This document shows, one piece after another, positions 1-51,902 of a stretch of 51,902 nt of DNA. Location: the IMG/VR virus record IMGVR_UViG_3300003886_000264, positions 1-51,902 of that record. One strand, 5' to 3'. This DNA comes from a virus. Position 1 is the first letter of the stretch; every line of letters starts with the position of its first letter. The translations under genes were made by a program, and so were the position numbers. The notes beneath the pieces were generated by a model that worked only from the letters and a program-made list of their open reading frames with translations, was not told the origin of the DNA and made no database searches.

Positions 1-91
1 CTTTCGGATGCCAGAGGACTTCTCCAGACTCCAAAAGATTACCAGGTCTATATGGTCTGCTCGGTTCTTCTGGAGCAACTTTCCCCATTTT
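1..91. repeat. 91-bp terminal direct repeat (contig overlap), left copy
   Basis: The first 91 bases are identical to the last 91 (51812-51902). The reading frame of the giant minus-strand gene passes through the repeat without a break when the two ends are joined. This fits a circular assembly graph closed with a k-mer-length overlap better than real phage termini, since it lies inside one gene. The unique genome length is then 51811 bp. The physical packaging ends cannot be read from this. Confidence 0.95.
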
Positions 92-14428: not shown

Positions 14429-15820
14429 TTAGTTATTAGGTTTTGCAGCACCAACTACTCTAAAGTTAGTATCAAGTAACCTTCTAACCATACCCCAAGC
14501 ACCATATAACTCTCTCCATTTGCCTTTGAAACCTTCATTCGATTTGTAAGATTTCGCATCATCTGGCTGGTCATTGAAAGGTACTTTGTGAGCTATTTGC
14601 CAGTTACCAAACCTATTCTTCTGATTATAATTATATTCAGATAAGTTTAATGCCAGCACTTCATTCTGCATACCAAGTTCATTAAGAATAGGAGCAGTAA
14701 CGTGATGAACAACCATATCTCTTCCAACAGACTCTAAAGTCATAATCTTCATTCTGTAATTGACAGAAAGTTGAGCGTTGGTATAGTATGTTGACTTATT
14801 CTCATAAGCATTAGCTAATTGTTCAGAGAAATGTGTTCCCGAGAACCACCACATCTCTTTAACACCGGAGATGTCAGCTTGGCGTCTGACTAAGTTATTA
14901 ATCCTTTGTACTGTAGGTACTTTGCCAGCCAAGTCCTGGTAATGGTCTGTGTCAGGATAAATAGTTTCAAGTACACCCCCTGTCTCGTATTCCAAATCAC
15001 CTGAGACTTTTTTCTTAGATTTTCTTGCTGTGAGAATTGCTCTCTCCATTGCCTTCATTAGAAAGGTCTCGGCAAGCTGGTAAGAAATATTAAGATACTC
15101 AGTACCTTTCGCAAGATAAGTCTCAATACCCCCACCCTGAACCATGTGCTCGCCTAATCCATAAGACATTCTGGTAATCTGGATATAGTTCTCAAGAAAA
15201 TCAGAATTCTTATTTATAGGTGGCTTTGGAAAATCATTTGCTCTTGCAACAAGATTACTCACAGTAAGAGTCATTGCAGTTGTAATAGCAGGAGCAGTAT
15301 TAGCATAAGTGTCAGCAGGATGTGCCCTTCTAACAGTTATAATTCTAAAACCAGTACCGCCACTATCTTCATTACCAATTGTGATTACTCTAACCTCTTC
15401 CGGAAGAACAATCCCATTCGCAATATTCATAGCAGTTGCCATATCATTACTTGCATTTGATACAGTAAATTTGCACCAGATACCATCTACGTGCAAACGT
15501 GTAGAAGTATTAAGTAAAGTGCCAACATCATTAGTTACTTTAAACTTAGTATTCGTTGCGTCAGTTGAATTCGATGCTTCAGAAAGCACAAATTGATAAT
15601 CAAGTTCATCAAATTCTGGATAACGAAACTCCCAATCAGTAATATCAGATGCAGGGACAGAACCAAACTTCTCGGATATGACCTTTAACAACGTAATCGT
15701 GTTAATCTGTCTTAGTGCCCAAAAACGGAAGAATTCCTTGTTCTGTGCATATATACGCAGTCTATCTTGGACATTAGAAAGGTCATATAAACCTTTTATA
15801 GTTTGACCATCAGCGTTCAT
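14429..15820 (-). CDS. Major capsid protein, 463 aa
   Basis: ATG at 15820 with AAAGGA about 9 nt upstream. It directly follows the scaffold and portal genes, the standard capsid gene order. Length fits HK97-fold capsid proteins of podoviruses. The N-terminal arm carries GLYDLSNVQDRLRIYA (residues 10-25) and DWEFRYPEF (62-70). Long helices follow, such as AETFLMKAMERAILTARKSK, as in a spine helix. The same two N-arm motifs recur in the small gene at 23367-23621. The call rests on gene order, size and absence of another candidate. Confidence 0.8.
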   Translation of the reverse strand: MNADGQTIKGLYDLSNVQDRLRIYAQNKEFFRFWALRQINTITLLKVISEKFGSVPASDITDWEFRYPEFDELDYQFVLSEASNSTDATNTKFKVTNDVGTLLNTSTRLHVDGIWCKFTVSNASNDMATAMNIANGIVLPEEVRVITIGNEDSGGTGFRIITVRRAHPADTYANTAPAITTAMTLTVSNLVARANDFPKPPINKNSDFLENYIQITRMSYGLGEHMVQGGGIETYLAKGTEYLNISYQLAETFLMKAMERAILTARKSKKKVSGDLEYETGGVLETIYPDTDHYQDLAGKVPTVQRINNLVRRQADISGVKEMWWFSGTHFSEQLANAYENKSTYYTNAQLSVNYRMKIMTLESVGRDMVVHHVTAPILNELGMQNEVLALNLSEYNYNQKNRFGNWQIAHKVPFNDQPDDAKSYKSNEGFKGKWRELYGAWGMVRRLLDTNFRVVGAAKPNN

Positions 15821-23100: not shown

Positions 23101-23385
23101 TCAAGATAACTCACCATCACTATCTTTAGTATTATTTATTGCTCTTTTTAAAGCATCATCTATTAGTGCTCTATTTATTCGCTGTATAGAGGCACTCAAT
23201 TCATTCATAAGCAATATCTCTACATTAGGAGAAAGATTAAAGATTTCTACACTAAAGCCAATTTCTAATCTTTCTGTAAACTTAGGTTTTTCTGTCATAA
23301 CCACAGTCTCTTCTCCTTTTTCAGTAGGTTCTCCTACTTCATCTATGATTTCTCCAACACTTACATCTATCCATACTGCGTGCAT
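23101..23385 (-). CDS. Unknown small protein, 94 aa
   Basis: ATG at 23385 has a strong GGAGGT site 5 nt upstream that lies inside the preceding small gene; the two overlap by 19 nt. The N-terminal half is acidic (GEIIDEVGEPTEKGEETVVM). The C-terminal half contains a helix ending in RALIDDALKRAINN. No membrane segment or metal motif. It belongs to the RyR-headed group at the start of the minus unit. Function unknown. Confidence 0.55.
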   Translation of the reverse strand: MHAVWIDVSVGEIIDEVGEPTEKGEETVVMTEKPKFTERLEIGFSVEIFNLSPNVEILLMNELSASIQRINRALIDDALKRAINNTKDSDGELS

Positions 23386-23621
23386 TTAACCTCCTGAAAT
23401 TCAGGGTATCTAAATTTCCAATCTTCAACTATCCCCTTATTCCCTTTTGATAACATTTCTAAAAGAGGCATTTTTGCATACTCCCTAAGTCTATCTTGAA
23501 TAAGTACAGAGTCATATAAACCAGTCGGCTCAGACAAAGGTGTTCTGAACCAACTGACTGGTTTAACGGACAAGGCAGCGATAGCGAGTCCCAAACTCCT
23601 TAAAAACGTTCTTCTATGCAA
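23367..23621 (-). CDS. Tat-signal-like protein with major-capsid N-arm motifs, 84 aa
   Basis: I start it at TTG 23621, 6 nt after GAGG and overlapping the RyR stop. A GTG at 23624 is the alternative; the frame is open further up inside the RyR gene. The N-terminus reads HRRTFLRSLGLAIAALSV, close to the twin-arginine consensus (S/T)RRxFLK plus a hydrophobic core. After a short linker come GLYDSVLIQDRLREYA (residues ~34-49) and EDWKFRYPEF, matching the capsid protein motifs GLYDLSNVQDRLRIYA and TDWEFRYPEF. Between the motifs the sequence differs and is shorter. It looks like an exported or membrane-targeted fragment of a capsid arm, or a remnant of a capsid gene duplication. Function unknown. 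Confidence 0.6.
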   Translation of the reverse strand: MHRRTFLRSLGLAIAALSVKPVSWFRTPLSEPTGLYDSVLIQDRLREYAKMPLLEMLSKGNKGIVEDWKFRYPEFQEVKCTQYG

Positions 23622-24036
23622 CACTTCCCTCAATCCTACCTGTAAAAGCTCCTTCTTCTTCAACAGGGACAACTATAAATGGTCTTAAAGAACCAATTAT
23701 CCCTTTAAAAAGATGGTCTTTAGCTTGCTGCTGAGAAGATAATTCATTAAAAGGAAGCAAACAAGGATGAGTTTTCAATTCTGCATCTTTCGTATGTCCC
23801 CAGACCCATCCAGTTCTGATTTTATCTCTCGTCCAGTTATCATGAGCAGCAGACTCACTCGCATCAGGATTACTCAGATGAAATTTAACTCCATCAACAG
23901 CACTAACTTTCTGCCATACTGGAGCATTTTCCCAACTATCCTGTGAATGGTCTTTATCCAGCGCACAGAAAACCTTATTCGCTTCGTGACATATTTGTGC
24001 CACATCTACTACTGATAAAAAAGTCCCTTCTTTCAT
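23614..24036 (-). CDS. RyR-domain protein, 140 aa
   Basis: ATG at 24036 with AAGGAGA 5 nt upstream. The sequence matches the prokaryotic/phage RyR (ryanodine-receptor repeat) domain: CHEANKVFCALDKDHSQDSW, then W..VSAVDGVKFHL, then HDNWTRDKIRTGWVWG, K..HPCLLPFNEL and the ending AKDHLFKGIIGSL. Conserved features are the paired Trp residues, the Lys-Thr-His-Pro-Cys stretch and the KDHLF helix. RyR domains are ~90 aa and occur alone in many phages; a ligand-sensing role (nucleotide-type small molecules) has been proposed but is not settled. It is the first gene after the 24.1-kb minus promoter. Confidence 0.82.
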   Translation of the reverse strand: MKEGTFLSVVDVAQICHEANKVFCALDKDHSQDSWENAPVWQKVSAVDGVKFHLSNPDASESAAHDNWTRDKIRTGWVWGHTKDAELKTHPCLLPFNELSSQQQAKDHLFKGIIGSLRPFIVVPVEEEGAFTGRIEGSVA

Positions 24037-45348: not shown

Positions 45349-46002
45349 TTAAAAAGCTCTTGTTTTCACGTAAGCCCATTTAACCTTTCCATTGACCTTG
45401 CTCTCATTATAGACCTTACGCAATCTATAAAACCATCCTTTACCAAACTTCCAAAAAGTTCTACGAGTCTCATAAAATTCTTTAAGTTCAAATATATAAA
45501 GTTCATATAAATAACTTTCATTTAGTATCCTTTTTGAACGTTGTCCTTGTAATCCTACCCTGTAAGCTGCGCTTATTGTTCTATGCCCTAAGATTCCATC
45601 AACTTTAAGAAAAAATCCAAAGCTTATATTTATAACAACTTGCAATGCTTTAACTGCTCGTTTAGGGTCTGCGTTAATACCAAAGTCAAATACTTTAAAA
45701 GCTAAACTCTCATCAGTAAATTGGTCGTAATAAAGACTATAAAAGTTCTTGTGATAAAACTGAATCGTGTATTCAATAGCTTCTAAATATTTACCAGCTT
45801 TCCAATAACTCATAACAACTTCAAAGTCTTCTTCCCAATACTTGGAAGCTATCCCGAATATTGTCTTACCACCTATATCATCAGGGTCATTTGCTAAGAC
45901 ACCTTCATTTATAAGAGATGCTTGAATAAATCTTATAAATCGAGCAGAGTAATAAGAAGGGAAGCGATATGCTCCCTCCTTAAATAATTGTGCGACTATC
46001 AA
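45349..46002 (-). CDS. GH108-type endolysin (muramidase), 217 aa
   Basis: Starts at TTG 46002, overlapping the upstream stop (TTGA), with GAGGA 9 nt upstream. The N-terminal motif NEGVLANDPDDIGGKTIFGI (~32-51) is the GH108 N-acetylmuramidase signature EGG..DP.D.GG.T.(Y/F)GI, with Glu ~33 catalytic. The C-terminal half has the peptidoglycan-binding-3 pattern: ALQVVINISFGFFLKVDGIL then GHRTISAA. It degrades the cell wall for lysis. No signal peptide, so it needs a holin. The tail is basic. Confidence 0.88.
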   Translation of the reverse strand: MIVAQLFKEGAYRFPSYYSARFIRFIQASLINEGVLANDPDDIGGKTIFGIASKYWEEDFEVVMSYWKAGKYLEAIEYTIQFYHKNFYSLYYDQFTDESLAFKVFDFGINADPKRAVKALQVVINISFGFFLKVDGILGHRTISAAYRVGLQGQRSKRILNESYLYELYIFELKEFYETRRTFWKFGKGWFYRLRKVYNESKVNGKVKWAYVKTRAF

Positions 46003-46610
46003 TGTAGCAAGTCCTCAATTTCTTCTTTACTAATAGCCTTCCCTGCAATATTATCTTTATTTTCTTCTTCAATCTTTTCATCTGGAGACTGAATGTGAGG
46101 TGCTTTTGGTTTTACTAACGAGTTAAGTTCCATACCTAACCAATTGGTACAATCATAAAGACCAATAACAACTTGGTTAAGGAAAAGATTTCCATCTGAG
46201 TTAAGAGAAAAATGCCCACGAAGAGACTCTGCTCCTTTAACTACTACAGAAAGATCTTTGCGCTGTTGTTTAATATAGATTACTTCTTGTCCAATATGTA
46301 CAGTAGGTAACTCACCTGGATAAGTATCAGCTGGTGGTCTCACTTCACTGTTCTCCGGATTATAACCTTCAGGATAAGGGCTGTGAGTACCATAGATACC
46401 CAATAGCTTCCCCATATACATACGGGCTTTTTCAAGAGCTGTAATTGCCAGAGAAACATACCGTTGTGAAGCTGCATTATCAGCTTTATATTTTTCAAAG
46501 AATCGTATCCTTGCATCGAGAGCTACACGTGCAGTTGTTAACCACAAGCAAGATTTTTGCCCAGTAGTTAACTCCCCTTTTCCAGTAGCTAACTTTTCTT
46601 CCATTTCCAT
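45999..46610 (-). CDS. Acb2/Tad1-hairpin protein, 203 aa: predicted cyclic-nucleotide sponge
   Basis: ATG at 46610 with AAAGGAG upstream. Residues ~20-95 match the Acb2/Tad1 helical-hairpin pattern: TTARVALDARIRFFEKYKAD, then SLAITALEKARMYMGKLL (~53-70; compare S(L/A)A(I/L)TKLEEAxMWLGKAL), then PYPEGYNPENSEVRPPAD (~78-95). Acb2 of phages binds cyclic di/trinucleotides and blocks CBASS immunity; Tad1 binds Thoeris signals. This protein adds a beta-rich middle (~100-165) and a charged C-terminus (~165-203), making it about twice Acb2 length. It lies between a membrane protein and endolysin, in the late operon. Recognition is from memory of the family pattern. Confidence 0.72.
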   Translation of the reverse strand: MEMEEKLATGKGELTTGQKSCLWLTTARVALDARIRFFEKYKADNAASQRYVSLAITALEKARMYMGKLLGIYGTHSPYPEGYNPENSEVRPPADTYPGELPTVHIGQEVIYIKQQRKDLSVVVKGAESLRGHFSLNSDGNLFLNQVVIGLYDCTNWLGMELNSLVKPKAPHIQSPDEKIEEENKDNIAGKAISKEEIEDLLH

Positions 46611-46620
46611 AATATCTCCT

Positions 46621-46845
46621 TTACTTTTTCTTTAAATTAAATAATTTCTTGTATTCTTTACCATTATCTTTAGCATCAAGCGAGCCAAATAATATGGTAA
46701 GTACAGTACCTGCAATTGTTAAGGGGACAAGCCCTGTCATTGCACCAATTGAGGTAAGTCCTCCCCCAATAACAGCTATCCTCCGCCTGTTACCTTTTAC
46801 AAGGTTATTAGCAGAGGATAGTGCTTGTTTAATTATTTTCCACAT
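46621..46845 (-). CDS. Holin-like membrane protein, 74 aa
   Basis: Starts at 46845, overlapping the upstream stop (TAATG-type). N-terminal amphipathic basic stretch (KIIKQALSSANNLVKGNRRR), then a hydrophobic segment RIAVIGGGLTSIGAMTGLVP LTIAGTVLTILFG (~23-55) that can form one or two TM helices, then a Lys-rich tail. Small size, one hydrophobic segment and position near the endolysin fit a holin. Two other small membrane proteins lie nearby, so which is the holin is open. Confidence 0.55.
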   Translation of the reverse strand: MWKIIKQALSSANNLVKGNRRRIAVIGGGLTSIGAMTGLVPLTIAGTVLTILFGSLDAKDNGKEYKKLFNLKKK

Positions 46846-51800: not shown

Positions 51801-51902
51801 GTGGGTTACAGCTTTCGGATGCCAGAGGACTTCTCCAGACTCCAAAAGATTACCAGGTCTATATGGTCTGCTCGGTTCTTCTGGAGCAACTTTCCCCATT
51901 TT
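48870..51902 (-). CDS. Giant internal virion / DNA-ejection protein, 3' part
   Basis: C-terminal part of the 2214-aa protein that starts at 3703; bases 51812-51902 repeat bases 1-91. The frame continues cleanly through the joint (SKYYDPKTEVKMGKVAPEEP). Segments: a linker rich in Lys/Pro/Asn/Thr just inside (KTEPNNPEKITPNNQKRTTT); long charged helices; then a more hydrophobic, Gly/Ala-rich part near residues ~1800-2100. That part contains IGKLFTMFQSAPNAYYRL and FVLPMLFQFVADGFNFNDKR, a pattern I associate with giant phage polyvalent proteins and gp16-type ejected proteins. The end is very basic (YRRDYRRLLNQLKKEERNK). Role inferred: forms part of the DNA ejection conduit. Confidence 0.8.
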   Translation of the reverse strand, partial: KMGKVAPEEPSRPYRPGNLLESGEVLWHPKAVTHADVIIRLQDEGKLPKNFNFDLIESSGSIAPSGVYYDQRFIGDVSKEIVSNVRKRESGKTEPNNPEKITPNNQKRTTTKPDNVEGVDVVGKIEPSLKTISDEIFAPKNKMSAGERKTFKSIVSKLQRYKPKKIKGRLTGTTLTADEHTKLYNIRKVVGVDAKEKEALMKKVVENLGEMELKPEKTATDRQYELEMQSLFENLGRFGAIKDMRGEQLKFANEGLKEIIETGRTKRKAKEEARLKRRNAILEKAIKEIGAPVSTAKARELGYDVEKSGFLRRLSEFDNNMLGFEHLLNKVSGKSSFLSEYFYKKQIKTANQSQDRGIRVTQEAIENKLSEIYGKDKRPLAKELEENRKRQDKTGVFVKETTGEKGKEVTELVELRISQNEGYKKWLELKDPTLDPTFKEMGYNPETIKQLETFLKPKVLEWAKWQIEEFYPTYYKGVNEAFRERFGVDLPFNKFYSPIERSATKEVIDNPLLQRGSQYATVVNKHLSMRVNSKAELKYLDGDKTLIKHIGEMEHFKAWVEPIREMRSVFGDKTFRMTIEQQYGKKMLDLIDFYVDNLARGGSEKSKSYELLDKLRRNFTRAVIGGNPIITVKQLTSIPAMGVNIPTSQFLAGIGDFAANPRKAIKILMDSEMMRTRYSAGAMDRDVQDALSKKVSTQLAGARSISDFLMLSTKLGDKAAILVGGWSVYKYNKAKFLKQGLPEEQAHKRALREFEVVVERTQQSARVEDLSYIQQSGSIGKLFTMFQSAPNAYYRLTSEAVRDLASGKGIKSENIRKLAIAHFVLPMLFQFVADGFNFNDKRQLRAAVLGSLNGLLVIGDLLQTGFAAAQKDFHFGVQGTPVLQTAEDLVQALEKAGKMIEEDDFAIDNVLSFADKIASGTSKLVGIPYGTGKRITKGVIEGEDVRRYIGYSEAVLKQTQSDMKRYKRLADSWRRRYKKDPTPENYASYLEYRRDYRRLLNQLKKEERNK
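51812..51902. repeat. 91-bp terminal direct repeat (contig overlap), right copy
   Basis: Exact copy of bases 1-91, so one copy is redundant. It lies inside the giant internal-virion gene, in the stretch encoding the residues around GEVLWHPKAV. Confidence 0.95.

Follow-up and report, generated by a model that had tools for sequence, protein, structure and literature searches.

Introduction

Acb2 and Tad1 trap their ligands in pockets between the protomers of a hexamer (PMC12043709, PMC10419184). How, then, should we read an Acb2/Tad1-like protein of 203 aa (hereafter, the sponge) that is encoded next to an endolysin gene in the lysis cassette of a phage? The gene lies in IMG/VR record IMGVR_UViG_3300003886_000264, and the window analyzed here is the whole stretch of 51,902 nucleotides. 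An initial annotation of this DNA assigned the N-terminal part of the protein to the Acb2/Tad1 hairpins and treated the rest as an extension that might target the protein, provide a second ligand site or serve a virion-carried function. Here we consider what each half of the protein is likely to be, whether the two halves belong together, and what the surrounding genome suggests about their role.

The Gene and Its Genomic Setting

The sponge gene is real. It occupies a single uninterrupted frame of 203 codons on the minus strand, running from 46610 to 45999, is preceded by a Shine-Dalgarno sequence (AAGGAGA, 46615..46621, minus) placed 4 nt 5' of its ATG, and is matched by the family profile at 56 bits in two domains; the plus strand of the same interval carries stops throughout. 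The initial annotation had the coordinates right and gave no strand, and both peptides that it quoted are found in this frame. It was also right that the gene adjoins an endolysin: the sponge stop overlaps by 4 nt the TTG start of a gene (45349..46002, minus) encoding a GH108 and PG_binding_3 protein (Pfam Glyco_hydro_108, E 1.1e-8; PHROG endolysin, 5.9e-21). The upstream neighbor (46621..46845, minus) encodes a small membrane protein of 74 aa with a hydrophobic segment at residue 35 and a weak match to a holin family (phrog_2877, E 0.033).

A direct terminal repeat of 91 bp (window positions 1-91 and 51812-51902) indicates that the genome is probably represented in full. Its minus-strand block begins at 24.0 kb, contains genes presumed to encode terminase, portal and capsid proteins (so called from size, order and reading rather than from family searches), and crosses the joined ends of the genome through a giant late protein of more than 2,000 aa, with the sponge and endolysin genes as its last members. 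As gene order, and in that sense only, the proposed placement in a late operon is therefore sound. Loci of related phages, reached by way of the large late protein, contain no counterpart of the sponge. As a separate observation on this block, the C-terminal part of a 101-aa ORF at 23367-23672 (minus), QDRLREYA...GIVEDWKFRYPEFQEV, is similar to the beginning of what is presumed to be the major capsid protein (14429-15820), which reads QDRLRIYAQ...DWEFRYPEFDEL, and the ORF is possibly a capsid-gene fragment.

The N-Terminal Half Belongs to the Acb2/Tad1 Hairpin Family by Profile and Predicted Fold

The direct match of the sponge to the Pfam family Acb2_Tad1_hairpin (PF24729) falls below the cut-off (15.7 vs. 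27 bits), and the relationship emerges through intermediates. A tblastn search supplied a bridging relative, the 95-aa protein gp107 of Tenacibaculum phage Gundel_1, which is 43% identical to the sponge over residues 50-95, passes the PF24729 cut-off and belongs to a large viral family. Each of the 31 relatives tested gives a match to PF24729 (best E 1.7e-9), and their profile matches the solved Tad1 structure 8kbb (E 4e-7) and, weakly, the solved Acb2 homolog 9ptq (E 0.34). This family profile, built from stand-alone phage members that match PF24729, in turn detects the N-terminal half of the sponge with high significance (hhalign E 4.3e-17 to family A4; HMMER 43.7 bits). AlphaFold2 (AF2) predicts a helical hairpin over residues 16-72, with two long antiparallel helices at 16-44 and 46-72 (pLDDT 93-98). 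The domain as a whole (residues 16-95; 46326..46565, minus) also includes a PYP...PPAD tail, PYPEGYNPENSEVRPPAD; in a branch of the family found mostly in Bacteroidota phages this C-terminal tail is conserved, and the relatives end with it. The initial assignment, which was to be abandoned if there was no profile hit or if the predicted fold lacked the hairpin, is upheld, since a profile match well above chance (E 4e-17) and a predicted hairpin were both found. On these grounds we place the N-terminal half in the Acb2/Tad1 hairpin family, as a divergent member.

Its resemblance to the two characterized sponges is uneven. With Tad1 it shares the helical hairpin and the family helix-2 motif RE..AITKLQE..MWLG, in whose WLG the N-terminal half replaces W/L by Y/M; however, Tad1 carries one hairpin after an N-terminal beta-sheet, whereas the sponge probably has two hairpins and begins with a short helix in the AF2 model rather than a sheet. 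With Acb2 it shares that short N-terminal helix, the long antiparallel helices and the common Pfam domain PF24729. Acb2, in contrast, is a 94-aa protein with one hairpin that assembles as six identical protomers, and the sponge, at 203 aa with two domains in tandem, departs from the single hairpin of about 90-100 aa that defines Acb2 in the strict sense. The signature SLAIT...PYP..Y.PEN...P.AD is common to the sponge and to stand-alone hairpin proteins of Bacteroidota phages (Gundel_1 gp107, crAss-like cr111_1 and Bacteroides phage BK735P4); several of this group carry N-terminal RyR or other fusions, and none has a second hairpin at the C-terminus.

A Probable Second, Degenerate Hairpin

The roughly 110 C-terminal residues had been described as lacking any counterpart in stand-alone Acb2. 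This was not borne out, as residues 105-176 (46083..46298, minus) match the hairpin family again; the second match of the family profile covers residues 107-176. Aligned to the family by hhalign, the C-terminal half scores 36.9 with a probability of 89.8, against maxima of 19.2 and 5.8, respectively, among 700 nulls (350 fragments of unrelated ORFs and as many shuffles). The family profile run on this half alone gives 16.7 bits, compared with 11.2 for the best of 20,000 shuffles and 9.0 for the best of about 2,200 reversed fragments. The parts corresponding to helix 1 and helix 2 each separately beat nearly all of 5,000 shuffles, occur in the correct order and are spaced within the family range, and BLAST against a single relative (L130) finds 30% identity over 91 aa covering both helices. 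Structure prediction is ambiguous here: the full-length AF2 model, whose alignment is empty of homologs over this half, places strands at 103-149 with pLDDT of about 45-71, and a model of the half built from an alignment that includes family rows is a confident helical hairpin, a result that those rows bias toward that fold. We conclude that the C-terminal half most likely represents a second hairpin of the Acb2/Tad1 type that has degenerated. Direct alignment of the N-terminal to the C-terminal half detects no similarity, which suggests that the duplication or fusion is old.

The two halves retain different parts of the family pattern. Of 37 conserved family positions, 17 are kept in the N-terminal half, 11 in the C-terminal half, 22 in either and six in both. 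The N-terminal half keeps R50, S53-L54 and I56-T57 (the R..SL.IT motif of the family) as well as the PYP/AD tail, and the C-terminal half keeps K114 and R117 (helix-1 K..R) together with W157-L158-G159-M160, L162 and L165 (helix-2 WLGM..L) and has no R-E, T or PYP tail. The copies may thus have divided structural and ligand-related roles between them. Of the 105 distinct family ORFs that the fetched loci contain, the sponge is the only tandem (none of its 104 relatives is), and the other ORFs end at most 12 residues past the end of the profile. No full-length homolog of the 203-aa protein was found: direct searches with the full protein against PHROGs, PADLOC, PDB, plasmids, viral contigs and genome contigs returned no match, and an NCBIfam search returned only a meaningless weak one. 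Foldseek gave no significant match for either model, an uninformative outcome because a hairpin of two helices is too generic a shape and the full-length model too uncertain.

Alternative Readings of the C-Terminal Half and of the Gene

The strands in the full-length model raise the alternative that a single Acb2/Tad1-like hairpin precedes a small beta domain of unrelated origin (an adaptor, ligand lid or targeting module) and that the WLGM and KQxRKD matches of the C-terminal half are coincidental. A beta-turn-like stretch (SLNSDGNLFLN), Chou-Fasman propensities that slightly favor strand, and the beta-sheet that lies beside the hairpin of Tad1 (PMC12043709) agree with such a domain. However, the strands are predicted at low confidence from one sequence, and in four tests the C-terminal half matches the hairpin family beyond essentially all controls, so that we regard this reading as unlikely. 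The suggestion of an unrelated extension for targeting or a virion role is without support when set beside a second degenerate hairpin, which the evidence favors, and we dropped such a role as a candidate, having found no membrane segment and no matching family. Among the three functions suggested earlier, a second ligand site is nearest the mark, although an independent site is doubtful given that the C-terminal half has lost R-E...T, where the family motif is most strongly conserved.

That loss, with the missing PYP tail, would also fit a functionless, decayed remnant of a duplicated hairpin attached to an N-terminal half that works alone as an ordinary sponge. Yet the frame of the C-terminal half is intact over 108 residues and preserves the helix motifs K..R and WLGM..L that the N-terminal half has lost, which makes simple decay a distinctly improbable account. 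We consider it more improbable still, and by a good measure, that lysis has recruited the gene as a timing regulator or antiholin with no anti-defense role. Its location, flanked by the genes for the endolysin and for a small, holin-like membrane protein, invites this idea, but the protein has no PHROG match and no membrane segment (maximum 19-residue hydropathy 0.93), its annotated relatives lie near dUTPase, NinG, DNA polymerase or reductase genes rather than lysis genes, and the same genome encodes an RyR protein resembling an anti-Thoeris enzyme.

A Possible Tandem Sponge Mechanism

With fair though far from full confidence, we favor a reading in which the sponge is a single-chain pseudo-dimer of two Acb2/Tad1-type hairpins, the second strongly diverged, that acts in phage counter-defense. 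The sequence establishes the homology of the N-terminal half, strongly indicates that of the C-terminal half, and establishes the tandem architecture and the location; pairing, oligomeric state, ligand and anti-defense role are what we infer. The two hairpins would pair within one chain as two protomers do in Acb2 or Tad1, and the pseudo-dimers might assemble further, for example as three chains instead of six. Such an assembly could sequester a signal, either a cyclic nucleotide or cyclic ADP-ribose, through one working half or through pockets built from both, and thereby keep CBASS or Thoeris effectors off. Placement in the late region would mean late expression, and we speculate that this might keep capsid-triggered signals in check or prevent death from coming too early, ahead of programmed lysis. 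A more specific version, which we think possible and would not bet on, is a duplicated hairpin with split function: one asymmetric pocket per chain, built by two halves that keep different conserved elements, a lower-order assembly such as a trimer, and a changed choice of ligand, in a protein made late from the lysis cassette that suppresses signals triggered by late structural proteins. If a tandem, sub-divided sponge proves true, it would illustrate a route by which homo-oligomeric sponges of phages become asymmetric and perhaps gain new ligands, and a sponge gene in a lysis cassette would call into question whether counter-defense has to be early.

An RyR Gene and RyR-Hairpin Fusions

A separate gene in the same genome (23614..24036, minus), with which the minus-strand late block opens, codes for a stand-alone RyR-domain protein (Pfam RyR, E 5e-11) that resembles RyDEP, an anti-Thoeris enzyme whose residues H75, W78, H100 and D117 were mutated in the study describing it (PMC13232231). 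The corresponding H65, W68, H90 and D107 do not vary within the family of the phage protein and reproduce exactly the active-site spacing of RyDEP. The RyDEP study makes no mention of Acb2 or Tad1 (PMC13232231). In at least six distinct relatives of the sponge (L097, L107, L114, L115, L132 and L159), and also in L175, an N-terminal RyR domain is fused to the hairpin in a single chain of about 200-226 aa that keeps the catalytic-register residues, and in another (L164) RyR and hairpin are neighboring genes. The fusions are possibly two-in-one anti-Thoeris/anti-CBASS proteins. Together with the RyR gene in this genome, they support an ADP-ribose or cyclic-nucleotide counter-defense role for this sponge branch, would link the branch to ADP-ribose signals and offer a ready panel for binding tests. 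Acb2/Tad1 hairpins also occur behind other N-terminal domains of no named family, as in L177 (2119-2649), L123, L135 and L168.
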